64,000 nt of DNA from Neofusicoccum parvum (lineage: Eukaryota; Ascomycota; Dothideomycetes; Botryosphaeriales; Botryosphaeriaceae): positions 558,001 to 622,000 of the forward strand of contig CP087219.1 of the NCBI GenBank assembly GCA_020912385.1, in the 5' to 3' direction. The position numbers were made by a program, and so were the translations under genes. Positions 2-37,406 of this stretch are shown one piece after another. Positions within the stretch are counted from its first letter, which is position 1. The number at the start of each line of letters is the position of its first letter. The notes beneath the pieces are model-generated. The model saw only the letters and a list, made by a program, of their open reading frames with translations, had not been told where the DNA came from and made no database searches.

Positions 2-1585
2 CAGGCTTTTGGCGACCTTCCTGCGCGCTGCGTGCCGACATCGACCGGGTCATTCACGCAGTGTCCGGGACAATCCCCAGCGCAGTGTCGACGCTTCGCG
101 GGCGCGAGAATCGACGACCAGTCAGCCCACGCCGGAAGCTGTGCCGGGGACTGTCCCCGCCTGTTTTGGGACGAGGAGTGCTACCGCAGCGTGACCGGGG
201 CGCGAGCAGTGTCCCTGGATGCAGCCCAGGACGGCTCGCTGAGATACTGCAGCGCATCTGGTGACACGATGGCCGTATCCCACGTCTGGAGCCACGGACA
301 AGGCGGACGGCCCGAGAAAGCGGAGGGCTCGACGGGATTCAACGCGTGCCTGCACCGGAGGTATTCCGACATAGCGCAGCGGTTCGGGTGCCACTCGTAC
401 TGGATGGACACGCCGTGCATCCCGGAAGACCACAACCTCCGGCGAGAGGCGATCGAGAGCATCAACCGGGTGTTTGCAAGCAGCCGGCTCACGCTCGTCT
501 GCGACCGAGACATCATGAGCATCGACGTGCGCGAGCGGGACATCGGCACCTACGAGGCGCTCCTGGCAGCGCTGCTCGTGTCGGACTGGAACGTGCGAGC
601 CTGGACGCTGCTCGAGGGCTACCAGGGCGCCGCAAACATCCACCTCCTCTGCAAGCACGACGAGACGCTCCGGCTCGCCGACGTCATCGCCGCCGTCCAC
701 ACGGCCGGCGACATGGTCCTAGCCAACATGTCCATGGCCACGGAACACCTCTTCCCGCCGCGCGAGAGCGCCCACACCACCACCACCACCACCACCACCA
801 CCAAGCCAGCGGACCCGCAGGACAAGCGCTTCAAGCCCAGCCTCGTGCAGTCCGGCCGCCTCCTCAGCCACCGCCACGCCAGCCGCGCCGGCGACGAGAT
901 CGTCATCTGGAGCCTGCTGCGCGGCCACCTATCCCACACCGCCGCCGCCTTCTGGCGCTCCCAGCAGACCGTCGACACCGGCTTCCTGGTCTCCGACGTG
1001 CCGCGCATCCCCGGCTCGCCCGGCCTCAGCTGGGCCCCCGCCCGCCCGGACCTGCCGCCCGCCGCGGACACGAGCACGCGGCGACGGCGCTTCGCGTCCG
1101 AGGGCGCCAACACCGAGGTTGGAGGTATCACGGAGGATGGGTTGAGGGCGTTCTGGCTGGTGTGTGCGTTTGGGGACGCGGGATTCAGGCGCGGCGCCGG
1201 CGGCTGGCTCGCCACGCGCGTCGCGCAGGTCAGGGAGATCGTGGCGGGGCGGGTGCCGTTGATTGACTCGTGGATCAGGAACTGCGACGCGCGCGCGGAC
1301 TACTACCGCGGGATGTGGCTGTTGCCGGCGGCGGCGAGGCGCAGGCTTGAAGGCATTGCCGCTGAGGTGGGGGTGAGCGCTGGTAGGCTGGCTCTGCTGC
1401 AGGCGGTGGAGTCGGGGCCGTACTACACGGACCTGCCGTACGCGTACCAAGGGGACGGGGAGGATGCGTTGCTGGTTGTTGTGGAGAAGAATGAGGGCGG
1501 GAACTGGGTCTGGAGGAAGGTGGTTGTGTGGGATGCTGACGTGCCGCTCCCGCCTTTCACGCGGCAGCGGATCCTGATACAGTGA
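2..1585 (+). CDS. HET-domain (heterokaryon incompatibility-like) protein, 5' partial
   Basis: Reading frame is open from the left edge to a TGA at 1583-1585, so the N-terminus lies outside the window. Residues encoded around 272-500 match the HET domain: AVSHVWSHGQGG, then YWMDTPCIP, then EAIESINRVFASS and a following LTLVCDRD. HET proteins are fungal allorecognition/cell-death effectors; the family assignment is solid, the specific role unknown. A run of nine Thr codons (ACC)9 at 776-802 sits in the linker after the HET domain. The C-terminal half shows no domain I recognise. No internal intron is needed. GC-rich, with codon use like the neighbouring housekeeping genes. The true start and any upstream exon cannot be seen. 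Confidence 0.8.
   Translation, partial: QAFGDLPARCVPTSTGSFTQCPGQSPAQCRRFAGARIDDQSAHAGSCAGDCPRLFWDEECYRSVTGARAVSLDAAQDGSLRYCSASGDTMAVSHVWSHGQGGRPEKAEGSTGFNACLHRRYSDIAQRFGCHSYWMDTPCIPEDHNLRREAIESINRVFASSRLTLVCDRDIMSIDVRERDIGTYEALLAALLVSDWNVRAWTLLEGYQGAANIHLLCKHDETLRLADVIAAVHTAGDMVLANMSMATEHLFPPRESAHTTTTTTTTTKPADPQDKRFKPSLVQSGRLLSHRHASRAGDEIVIWSLLRGHLSHTAAAFWRSQQTVDTGFLVSDVPRIPGSPGLSWAPARPDLPPAADTSTRRRRFASEGANTEVGGITEDGLRAFWLVCAFGDAGFRRGAGGWLATRVAQVREIVAGRVPLIDSWIRNCDARADYYRGMWLLPAAARRRLEGIAAEVGVSAGRLALLQAVESGPYYTDLPYAYQGDGEDALLVVVEKNEGGNWVWRKVVVWDADVPLPPFTRQRILIQ
776..802 (+). repeat. (ACC)9 trinucleotide repeat inside HET gene
   Basis: Nine perfect ACC codons encode a Thr9 run in the HET-domain protein. 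The tract is in frame, so repeat-number change alters length without frameshift. Confidence 0.9.
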
Positions 1586-9751: not shown

Positions 9752-11104
9752 TACTGGCTTGGTTGATGGATGGAGGAAGGATGGAGCGAGCCAGTCATAT
9801 GGATGAAAGGTCCGGAATGAGGACTGTTTGCAGCGATTGTGGGCCTAAATTGCAAGGTCAATCAAGAGACGCAGGTCAATAGTTTGCATATGTCGATTGG
9901 AATTCTTCTGTATTGAAAAGGAAGACCCGTCCATTGATGTTGCGCAATGACGAGGAGATTCCTGAACTGGCAAAACTCGGGTGACCTTCTTAGTGATACT
10001 AGTCGTCCGAACTAAGCTTCAATCTGTCCGCCAGCTATCTACATAAAGAAGACGCACGCCCTCAAGCCACGGGAAATCATGTCTGGCACTGGAACGAGAT
10101 CTCCGAAAAGCTCGGTACTATTATGCCGCGCTGTCATCTGCGCGGACTCATCAACCTACTGGATTACAGGGGTACTCTAGAAACATCTAGCCAGTTGAAT
10201 AAATAATCATTGGAGAAGCACGAGCAGAGTCCCGTGATGCATCATCTAGTAACGTGGATGAGGGACAGCGAGACTTCAGAAAAGATCCGTGATGAGCCAA
10301 CGGCATGATATATTTCCGATTTTCTTTATTTCTAAATCTCGGCCATTATTATTACAAAGTTCAGACTGCCCACCTCGAAAGGCCAGAGACGCAACTATAG
10401 AGGGTGAATTGAATAAAATGCGGGGTATAGTTAAGGTCACAGCTCACTGGACCCTCCCGAATGAATGGAGACATTCCCTGGAAGCTCACTTGGCTTGGTT
10501 GTCGAGAAACGAGAACAAAAATGTGCCCTTCATGGGCGAGATACGAGGCCAGTTGTTACCACGCACATTGGAGCTGGTAGGCGTGGGTCTCGTACGCGGA
10601 CGGCAAAGCACGTATGGACAGATCACTTGGGTATGAGGATAAGTTAAGCACAAGATTAAGTAGCTCTTTTCCCGGGTCAAATTGTACAGAAGCACCAAGC
10701 ACGTCTACCACGAGCCAGGGCCCTGGTACCGAAGTATTAAATAGCTGCGTGCAGTCTGACATCGTACACTCCAAACAAACAAGCATCTGTGGCTGTCATA
10801 GTGTGGCAATGCAACTGCCATCGGTAGGCAGTATTTCACACTGTTGAGTTCGATACCCGATGACACTGCACTTGTACTGTGTTGCTCGAGTTGGTTGTTC
10901 AATGCTCACTGCATGTATTGTCGGGATAGTCCCACACTCCTTCCGCTGCATTTCCGAGGCACTCACATAACTCATCACGACTTGACCAGCGAATTTCAAG
11001 AATGTTGAAACGCATCAACTCTCATAGTCACCGACTGACATCTATTCTTCTACCTCTTGCCTCCCCTCATCGTCCCTCTCACACAATCCAAAGCAGCCTG
11101 TCTC
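9752..11104. other. Intergenic, no gene seen
   Basis: 1.35 kb between the tRNA-Ile and the 3' end of the Trm732-like gene. Only short ORFs without family features. Confidence 0.5.
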
Positions 11105-31794: not shown

Positions 31795-31817
31795 AGTCCT
31801 ATGGTCTAGTGGTATGA

Positions 31818-31870
31818 GTAAGTCATCTCGCTGCTCGCCGGTGCCCGTACCGCATTCTAATCCCGCCCAG
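31818..31870 (+). other. Spliceosomal-type intron in tRNA-Val D arm (24/25)
   Basis: 53 nt, GTAAGT donor, CTAAT branch, CCCAG end. It splits the third D-stem base pair, so the D stem needs its removal. Confidence 0.75.
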
Positions 31871-31937
31871 CGTTCGCTTCACAGCAATCTCTCCGCCTGC
31901 GAGACTTCTTGGAGCGCGAAAGGTCCTGGGTTCGATC

Positions 31938-31992
31938 GTAAGTCTTCTGCCGCCGGCCGTGAGGAAGAGAGTCGTGTCTAACAGTGACTTAG
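31938..31992 (+). other. Spliceosomal-type intron in tRNA-Val T arm (60/61)
   Basis: 55 nt, GTAAGT donor, CTAAC branch, TTAG end. It separates the T loop from the 3' half of the T stem and the 3' acceptor strand. Confidence 0.78.
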
Positions 31993-32019
31993 CCCAGTGG
32001 GACTACAAGCACAACTTGA

Positions 32020-32025
32020 TTTTTT
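32020..32025 (+). terminator. Candidate Pol III T6 terminator for tRNA-Val
   Basis: Six consecutive T, 15 nt past the discriminator base, as expected for a Pol III unit covering the whole interrupted gene. Confidence 0.65.
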
Positions 32026-35000: not shown

Positions 35001-35602
35001 GAGGAGGAGGAGGAGGAGGAGGAGGAGGAGGGGGGGGGAGGAGAAATACCTCGTAAGTATAGCATCGAAAACCTGATGGGTATTTGATTACTGTGAAACA
35101 TCATGGACAAAGAACCAATCATAGAGGGGCATATGATCTCTTGATATTCATGCCCAGGGTGAAGGGACCGTACGAGCGTGGTATATATTTTGGACGGCAC
35201 AAGGCTCGCGCTGGGTGGTCATCGAGCCGTCGAGAAAGGTCAGGGCGGTCTACTTACATGCTTTAGCAATTAATCCAGGAATACCAAAGTATTAGCTCAG
35301 CAATCTTTGTGTGAAAAAGGGTGAAGAGGCCAGGGGGACTATGGGTGGACGTGATGCTGATGATGGAATGTATCATTCCTGGGGTACGGCGAGTATGGCA
35401 TAACATCAGACAGTAGGCACATCTTGGAACGATATCAAAAGAAAAGATATGCAAAAGGCCAATAATTCAGTACTGCCTACGCAGCGATGCCAGTTATGAT
35501 TTGCAAAATCTACCGAGCTCAAATTCTGCCAACCGAGATGAAGCCAAATCACCAACCTACGTGTACGCCAGGTCCGCAATCAAATGTCGTAAAAGCCGCA
35601 AC
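32026..35602. other. Gene-poor region between tRNA-Val and the zinc transporter
   Basis: 3.6 kb with many short ORFs and no family signal. Contains the GGA repeat listed below. Confidence 0.5.
34996..35040. repeat. (GGA)n microsatellite followed by poly-G
   Basis: About eleven GGA/GAG triplets run into a stretch of nine or more G. Confidence 0.85.
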
Positions 35603-37406
35603 TTATGCCGTCAAAGCAGAACTGATTCCCAAAATTCCCATACCAACAAATGCAAAGGTCATGCAGAGACTCCGACTATGCGTCAGGCCCATACTCTCTT
35701 GGAAAAGTTGTAATGCTACAGAGGTCATCACGCCAGCTTGAAAACGTTAGCCATAAACAAAAGACACGAGTTGAGGTGTAGGCACTTACCAGTAACGGCA
35801 AACATTCCTCCATACACGGACTCACCAGGCTCACCGATGCCTGTCCGTCCAGCGATCCTGAACCACAGTGCTGCTACACCAGCACCCAAAGGCTGACTCG
35901 CTCCACCCAGAATGCTGCTGATTACCATGGCCTTCCATCTGCTGTTGATTGCGAGATACAAGGGAAGAGCCATGGCGAAACCCTCAGTGATGTTGTGGAT
36001 GAAGAGAGCTAGAAAAACGGCGAACCCAAGTTGAGGGTTTGCGTGGTTAGTAGCGTAGGTGATGAACCCCTCAGGAAGTTTATGCAGGGCAATAGCAAGG
36101 GATGTTTGGAGGCCGATGGACATGAAAGCGTTGGTGGGGACATGGTGGTGGTGATGGCTTTGCTCCGCATGATTGTGGTGAGAATGGTCATGATCTTCAT
36201 GGCCATGGTGGTCATGATGGTCGTGATGGTCGTGGTGGTCGTCGTGATGATCATGGGCCGAGTATGTTGAGTACGTCGAGCGGGTGCTCCGAGGCTTTGA
36301 GGAGCCATTGGCGTTTCCTTGAGCAGCAGCCGGCGAAAGGGTTCGGTAGTCTCCATCAGCGTGCTCCGATCTGTGAGATAGTAGAGGCTGGCGCTCGGAT
36401 AGCACCGCGTTCGAGGTCGGCGCTGTCGAGTTATGGGGCGTGGTTACACTTCTGGACATGCCAGGTTGGCGAGGCCATGTGTGGACGGGGGCTCTGGTGC
36501 CACCTCTGGCCTGGATGATCTTGAAACACTCTGAGCCACACGGATCAGTATAGCCGTGGCAAGGACCAATCTCGTCGCATTGAGCCTTCGTTTTCGTCAT
36601 AATCTGAGAAGCCTTGTGCACCAACTGCGCTGGGAAAGACGGCCTCCGCGCCGGGGGATAATTCTTTGGCGGATGGAAGGATTCGGTGCTGTTGAACATG
36701 TCGCTGTGCGCGGAGGCGTCAAGGCTGCCAGCGCCGCTGTTGGGTACGCCAAGGTGCTGTTGGCCTTGGTACTTTGGAAGGCCGTTCTCGTGCTCATGGC
36801 TACCAGAGCCAGTGGTCTTGTCGAAATCGTGGTCTTGCTTAGCCGACTCCTCGTCGCCATGCGTGTGGTCACAGTCGACGATGTGAGAAGGCATGAACTG
36901 GTGGATGACCCGCGAGACCAGCTGGATGCCAATCACGCCTCCAAGGAAGCAGGCAATCAAAATCCACGCGGCGGCCTTTGGTGAGTGGCCGCCTTTCTGG
37001 AGCGAGTTCTTGGCGGACGGGAGCATGCTGTACAGCGACGAAAACAGCTTCGGGCCGGTTCAGCACGATGTCACGCACGCGGTGGAAAAAATCACTCACC
37101 ATGACGCCGAAGCTCAGGCTCAGCGAAGCCGACAGGAAGACGTTGCTGTCCTGGATCCTGAAGGTCTTCTTGCCGGGGAACAATCTGACGATGATGTCGA
37201 TGCAGATGACGGAGGCTGCGTGTATGAATCAGCACTGGGCGGGCCGGGCAGCTGCAGCGATTCGGGACTTACCTCCGAGCACACATGCTGTTATCCACAG
37301 AAAGGCCTAGTTAGTCGCGGGCTCGGACGGGCAGACGCGCATGGAGCTCACCTATGCCGCTCATGGCGGTCATGATCCAGCCGCGGGTGTCGTTGTCGAG
37401 CGCCAT
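35603..37406 (-). CDS. zrt3: ZIP-family zinc transporter, Zrt3-like (vacuolar release type)
   Basis: Five exons: 37406-37352, 37287-37273, 37215-37100, 37047-35790, 35736-35603; 1578 nt, 525 aa. N-terminal TM helices (GWIMTAMSGIACVLGASVI; LSASLSLSFGVM) lead to a long cytosolic loop with a dense His/Asp tract (HDHHDDHHDHHDHHDHHGH). The ZIP core follows: LHKLPEGFITYATNHANP and FIHNITEGFAMALPL carry the metal-binding His/Asn/Glu, then GGASQPLGAGVAAL. The family moves Zn(II) toward the cytosol; Zrt3 acts at the vacuole. Exon 2 is a 15-nt micro-exon encoding CVLG plus split codons. The last exon gives the final TM helix (MTFAFVGMGILGISSAL). Confidence 0.9.

Follow-up and report, generated by a model that had tools for sequence, protein, structure and literature searches.

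The window, i.e., the whole 64,000-nucleotide stretch of Neofusicoccum parvum DNA analysed here, harbours on its plus strand a tRNA-Val(CAC) gene that is interrupted by three inserts. Exon 1 (31795..31817) comprises tRNA positions 1-24, from the acceptor 5' strand through the D arm to A24, and includes an uninterrupted element, TGGTCTAGTGG (31802..31812), which was picked out by eye and which we take to be the Pol III A box from the A-box consensus. It is followed by a 53-nt GT-AG intron at site 24/25 (31818..31870; 5' splice site GTAAGT, 3' splice site CAG, branch motif CTAAT at 31857-31861), an exon with positions 25-37 and the anticodon CAC (31871..31883), an ordinary 37/38 tRNA intron of 31 nt with boundaries set by hand (31884..31914), and an exon covering positions 38-60 (31915..31937). 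The latter keeps the Pol III B box GGTTCGATC (31929..31937, by eye) up to position 60, despite a second GT-AG intron of 55 nt at site 60/61 (31938..31992; 5' splice site GTAAGT, 3' splice site TAG, branch motif CTAAC at 31978-31982) that contains no B box of its own. In these two inserts the branch A lies 10 or 11 nt from the intron end. Positions 61-73, comprising the T stem 3' strand, the acceptor 3' strand and the discriminator A, form the terminal exon (31993..32005), and a T6 run at 32020-32025 presumably serves as Pol III terminator.

A first-pass annotation of this locus had described tRNA-Val(CAC) as interrupted by an intron at 37/38 and by GT-AG inserts at 24/25 and 60/61 bearing GTAAGT, CTAAT/CTAAC and AG, and as followed by a T6 stop. 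The coordinates are exact, the signature is found in both inserts and the T6 run is present; ARAGORN finds no tRNA in the unspliced gene and a complete tRNA once the inserts are removed. The spliced gene is printed as “Ser cga”, which is caused by a shifted register of the 37/38 intron; a paralogue with identical exons on contig C16 is named Val cac by the same program. The spliced cloverleaf, paired by hand, has seven acceptor pairs (one G-U), five anticodon pairs, five T-stem pairs and three D-stem pairs. The assertion that every stem is fully paired therefore holds for the acceptor, anticodon and T stems, but not for position 13-22, which is T-T. The C16 paralogue (C16:1187407) shares exon 1 and carries an insert of diverged body at the equal site 24/25. 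It is devoid of a 60/61 insert, and its exons match those of the window gene exactly across that junction.

Both strands of the 64-kb window were scanned for introns of the form GT[AT][AG]G[CT]..CTAAY..YAG, a form set after the data had been seen and narrower than some mRNA introns of this genome. The scan yielded 11 candidate introns, which allow two possible neighbouring pairs; of all constructs, only the Val-CAC pair gives a tRNA that spans the junctions, which argues against a chance arrangement. Two introns of a nearby ZIP transporter gene (window 35600-37400, minus strand) read GTGAGC..CTAAC..CAG and GTAAGT..CTAAC..TAG, as judged by eye in this one gene. With 98% identity, a Neofusicoccum ribis protein is the nearest named match to the ZIP transporter, followed by proteins of Macrophomina, Lasiodiplodia and Diplodia. 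At window 2-1585 there is an open reading frame with a weak match to the HET (heterokaryon incompatibility) domain. A tRNA-Pro(cgg) called by ARAGORN at window 10792-10869 has the look of a false positive and was rejected: it is unlike the Pro genes described below, and Rfam is silent there.

The feature is genome-wide and extends beyond the window gene. In the one genome searched (43,992,428 bases, 18 contigs) at least 16 tRNA genes carry a total of 18 GT-AG inserts, namely two Val-CAC, eight Pro, two Arg-CCT, two Ala and two Leu-CAG genes. This inventory is a lower bound, since only 63 of 860 candidates were scored in the Rfam search and diverged genes escape the pattern searches. A search with exon 1 (at most three mismatches) retrieved seven genes versus two in the control, all seven with GT-AG inserts: two Val-CAC (24/25), four Pro-AGG and one Pro-TGG (T loop, 57/58). 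The first-pass annotation had raised the matter of an uninterrupted Val-CAC gene elsewhere, yet both Val-CAC genes found by the exon-1 search carry the 24/25 intron. The Pro 5' half, again with at most three mismatches, retrieved ten genes versus none in the control. Eight of these are Pro genes (four AGG, three CGG, one TGG), each with a T-loop intron, and two are Ala-CGC genes, one of which has a T-loop intron. Intron-pattern searches added two Arg-CCT genes and one Ala-AGC gene, the latter with a D-loop intron as well, while a Leu-CAG gene with a D-arm intron emerged from the Rfam tRNA search and its second copy from a D-arm pattern.

According to assignment by hand, the inserts occupy sites 19/20, 24/25, the 3' side of the D arm (Leu), 57/58 and 60/61, and none is located at 37/38. 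Twelve reside at 57/58, five in the D arm and one at 60/61; an anticodon-loop intron is also present in all 16 interrupted genes. An intact Pro gene was seen neither in the Pro 5'-half search (at most three mismatches) nor among the Rfam tRNA matches, 48 of 49 of which were inspected and comprise no Pro (C7:1470932 is the one left out). Since no intact Pro gene was seen and all eight found are split, removal of the inserts must work. Four of the eight Pro genes (two CGG, one AGG, one TGG) are clustered within about 56 kb on C16, at about 115.6-171.6 kb.

The 18 inserts all carry splice-site and branch-point motifs. All are 53-58 nt in length, lie in tRNA sense and have GT..AG ends; their 5' splice sites are GTAAGT (14), GTAAGC (two), GTAGGC (one) and GTTAGT (one). 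CTAAY is found in each of them, with the branch A 10-14 nt before the intron end. Thirteen inserts stem from genes recovered without motif criteria, a number that drops to 11 once the window gene is left out, which had been chosen by the earlier reader for the motifs of its two inserts. The 13 comprise those of the eight Pro genes and Ala-CGC (Pro 5' half), three in Val-CAC (exon 1) and that of Leu-CAG on C5 (Rfam), and GT, CTAAY and AG are present in 13/13. The remaining five (two in Arg-CCT, two in Ala-AGC, one in Leu-CAG on C17) were found only through patterns that require the motifs and thus lend no support to the motif count. When 27 anticodon-loop introns of this genome were screened in every register within 4 nt, none had the combined GT..CTAAY..AG signature. 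Features of group I or II self-splicing introns, which have a catalytic core and run to hundreds of bases, were not found, the inserts being 53-58 nt long and the window lacking an Rfam match above the gathering score.

Nuclear tRNA introns are described as located exclusively at 37/38, except in unicellular algae and nucleomorphs, where additional introns are bulge-helix-bulge (BHB)-mediated or, in Guillardia, often lack a defined BHB (PMC3978253). The inserts might be cut by the Sen endonuclease and a ligase at new sites, as in the red alga Cyanidioschyzon, with the GT and AG ends being incidental; the first-pass annotation had also considered that Sen accepts new sites. A precedent is provided by C. 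merolae, where ectopic BHB introns are removed by the endonuclease, including one in the T loop at 55/56 (PMC3978253). Yet none of the 18 inserts allows a 4-bp BHB central helix at its junctions, as assessed with strict geometry only, and the narrowly spaced GT, CTAAY and AG of 18/18 inserts contrast with 0/27 anticodon-loop introns. Cleavage by Sen at new sites is therefore disfavoured and appears improbable.

Removal of the GT-AG inserts yields a tRNA call by ARAGORN in 16/16 genes. In unspliced form, 14 of the 16 escape detection, and ARAGORN takes the two Leu-CAG genes for Gly. Two spliced genes are misnamed, the window Val gene as Ser and Ala-AGC as Thr, due to a register shift of the anticodon intron. 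Insert-free paralogues equal the predicted exons exactly in the case of Ala-CGC (L079 versus L033) and Ala-AGC (L080 versus L022, across both inserts). Together with the match of the C16 Val-CAC gene across 60/61, the junctions of three genes are thus confirmed to the base. Automatic removal of a single GT..CTAAY..AG stretch produced a tRNA in 14/16 true genes and in 0/44 other pattern matches, and the two true genes not recovered need two removals. This test is imprecise on the junction, as shifted cuts also pass in at least five true genes (L010, L015, L018, L086 and L112), and at L086 the test does not call Leu. It is ARAGORN splicing and the comparison of paralogues that fix the exact junctions.

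Comparison of gene copies reveals that the GT-AG intron can drift, with its signals retained, between copies with unchanged exons, a drift that is evident in part of the pairs. In three Pro-AGG pairs 88/88 exon and 37/38-intron bases are equal, and the middle of the insert matches at 21/39, 25/34 and 29/31 positions. The corresponding values are 110/110 and 25/38 for the Leu-CAG pair, and 122/122 and 31/34 for two C16 copies of Pro-CGG. The Val-CAC copies share 72/72 exon bases and 18/35 in the middle of the 24/25 intron; their 37/38 introns differ. Other pairs differ outside the GT-AG intron too, namely Arg-CCT (81/153 exon and 37/38-intron bases) and Pro-CGG on C5 versus C16 (103/124), and two copy pairs have nearly identical GT-AG introns (51/53 and 53/58). 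With regard to a possible common origin of the 57/58 introns, 10/56 pairs of such introns from genes with different anticodons reach a z above 3 (maximum 3.9), which the shared B box alone could explain. In the three Pro-AGG pairs and the Leu-CAG pair compared, the 37/38 intron is identical despite drift of the GT-AG intron, as though selection, or homogenisation with the exons, acted on it.

These comparisons also bear on the view that intron insertion turned the interrupted copies into pseudogenes, while intact genes elsewhere supply the tRNAs. The first-pass annotation had similarly suggested that the window copy was recently disabled by mobile introns. Intact paralogues of Ala-CGC and Ala-AGC do exist, and an intact Val-TAC gene is present as well (L060, called Lys by ARAGORN, with TAC read by hand). 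The intact Val-TAC could read GUG by wobble, and hence Val-CAC need not be essential and is possibly dispensable. However, the interrupted Ala and Val genes have the same exons as intact genes or as each other, the eight Pro genes retrieved with the Pro 5' half at up to three mismatches are all interrupted alike, and the Rfam matches inspected contain no Pro. Moreover, the 57/58 introns keep a B box. Disablement of the window copy is thus unsupported, and inactivity of the interrupted genes as a group is highly improbable, even more so than cleavage by Sen at new sites.

The 12 introns at 57/58 split the Pol III B box of their hosts. An exact GTTCRANYC is found within 10/12 of these introns, 11 or 12 nt past the intron start, and the remaining two contain ATTCGATCC and GTTCCATTC, 13 nt in and with one mismatch each, as counted by hand. 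None of the six inserts that spare the host B box up to position 60, five in the D arm and one at 60/61, contains a B box, and eight non-tRNA introns of the same pattern search contain no exact one. Fisher's test of 12 versus 14 introns gives a p of 1.2e-5, which is optimistic given the relatedness of copies of one isotype. When the whole genome was searched for GTANGY, a B box and CTAAY irrespective of tRNA context, 12 places were retrieved (six in the reversed control), ten of which are tRNA T loops; the other two are not tRNAs. The 57/58 introns appear to carry a promoter function, as judged from these motifs, and, to go by the intronic B box, the survival of an insertion may depend on promoter rescue. 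In the trailer of the Ala-AGC gene L022 on C4, a second B-box-like sequence, GGTTCAATTCC, lies between the tRNA end and a T8 run.

Spliceosomal introns usually sit in Pol II transcripts. Pol II might thus transcribe the genes, e.g., as part of longer transcripts, which would be spliced like mRNA before the tRNA is cut out, a scheme that shares the spliceosome step with the reading preferred here. Against this view, the A boxes are intact in all 16 genes, the B boxes are intact or replaced inside the intron, and a T run of at least four follows within about 50 nt of each of the 16 genes, as judged by eye. Furthermore, fission-yeast U6 is a Pol III transcript with an mRNA-type intron (PMC10484740). 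Transcription by Pol II consequently seems an unlikely route.

The signal resides in the tRNA context and the B box, and not in the bare T-loop intron pattern. The latter returned 25 rows, equivalent to 20 distinct places with 12 tRNAs among them, versus 26 in the reversed control, and another intron-pattern search 14 rows versus seven in the control. A 60/61 pattern gave four rows (three distinct places) versus nine in the control, the only tRNA being the window gene, and a pattern for 58/59-59/60 gave six places versus ten in the reversed control, none of which (0/6) formed a tRNA on intron removal. The D-arm pattern matched 27 places versus 19 in the control; three are tRNAs (Ala-AGC and two Leu-CAG), and the other 24 formed no tRNA, nor did fourteen further non-tRNA pattern matches. 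A pattern without branch point yielded 13 places versus four in the control, comprising 11 known T loops and two places that are not tRNA.

Among the possibilities named in the first-pass annotation, a Pol III transcript that enters the spliceosome best fits the splice-site and branch motifs found in 18/18 inserts. The window gene very probably encodes a functional nuclear tRNA-Val(CAC) and has, in addition to its 37/38 intron, two spliceosomal introns of U2 type, as one of at least 16 such genes. At a slightly lower but still high level of confidence, the genome would represent a lineage whose nuclear tRNAs need the spliceosome for their maturation. It would harbour a new class of tRNA introns, which would have spread through several isotypes, including all Pro genes found, and would be tolerated by means of the intron's own B box where the host's is split. 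The signals, the junctions, the conservation of exons in most copy pairs, the intronic B boxes and the lack of an intact Pro gene in the searches are read from the sequence.

In the proposed pathway, Pol III would transcribe the genes from the A and B boxes to the T run, and where the B box is split at 57/58, the intronic B box would take over. Within the nucleus, U1 and U2 would read GTAAGT and CTAAY, respectively, and the spliceosome would remove the GT-AG introns. The D and T arms could then fold, and end trimming, export and Sen cleavage at 37/38 would follow, presumably in this order. Sen reads the folded tRNA body, and since this body cannot form earlier, the GT-AG introns would have to leave before Sen cleavage.

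Several known systems share single traits with these genes. Spliceosomal introns are known in fungal rDNA, and introner elements are introns gained at new places, with many nearly identical copies per genome. Like these, the inserts described here are spliceosomal-type introns at new places and, as in rDNA, outside protein genes; in contrast to introners, BLAST with the whole window gene as query, and for this gene only, matched only the gene itself and its C16 paralogue. The nucleus of C. merolae and the nucleomorph of Guillardia likewise possess extra tRNA introns outside 37/38, including the T loop, but the C. merolae introns leave by endonuclease via a BHB, and a GT/CTAAY/AG signature is not described in the accessible part of that account (PMC3978253). 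Compared to the standard 37/38 intron, which is present in 16/16 genes here, the GT-AG introns are extra, lie elsewhere and are of another type. Eukaryotic tRNA genes are considered “limited to one intron” in the description of tRNAscan-SE 2.0 (PMC8450103), and according to a 2017 paper, frequent interruption is known among small structured RNAs for U3 and U6 only, with tRNAs unnamed in its accessible part (PMC5832005). Searches of an open literature collection, which largely excludes subscription papers and preprints, found no report of spliceosomal introns in tRNA genes, and a prior report is possible.

In the textbook division of labour, the spliceosome processes mRNA, while Sen and a ligase process tRNA. 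Here, the two splicing machines appear to meet in one transcript, and no bypass was seen for proline. If true, the whole tRNA supply of one amino acid hangs on spliceosome activity, and each such tRNA is spliced by two unrelated machines. With these genes it becomes possible to test by what route Pol III genes acquire introns, whether Pol II is needed for splicing and whether the supply of tRNA can be tied to spliceosome activity. Programs that allow for one 37/38 intron miss such genes, as seen for ARAGORN (14/16 missed, two misnamed), and “missing” tRNAs of related genomes may therefore be hidden in this way.

One of the closest parallels is U6. The Schizosaccharomyces U6 snRNA gene reportedly contains an mRNA-type intron (Tani and Ohshima 1989), inside which a B-box match is said to lie (Frendewey et al. 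1990), and introns of fungal U3 and U6 genes are reportedly the subject of a further paper (Canzler et al. 2016). Fission-yeast U6 and the 57/58 tRNA introns have in common a Pol III gene, a spliceosomal-type intron and a B box within it, whereas here five amino acids are represented among the host tRNAs, and each transcript has a Sen-type intron in addition. The two introns of the window gene lack the intronic B box that is exact in 10/12 57/58 introns, and their host B box is kept. U6 is itself a component of the spliceosome, and its intron adjoins catalytic nucleotides (PMC10484740). U6 sets the precedent for splicing of a Pol III transcript whose intron holds a B box; for tRNA, the inserts would constitute a new intron class.

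Like the fungal U3 and U6 introns, which are mRNA-type introns in small structured RNAs, an insert is present in a U6 gene of the same genome. The U6 copy L111 (C2:2956570-2956668, minus strand, and bases just beyond) contains, after CTAAG, a 61-nt insert that runs from GTTCGT through CTGAC to TAG and holds a B-box-like GGCTCAATCC. Its junction is confirmed by the uninterrupted U6 gene L109 (C16:1152130-1152229, minus strand). A short distance past its T run, L109 has a B box, GTTCGATCCCC, and budding yeast U6 likewise has a downstream B box. A third locus, L110 (C5:766338-766444), is a diverged U6-like gene, the 5' part of which is strongly unlike L109 and L111.
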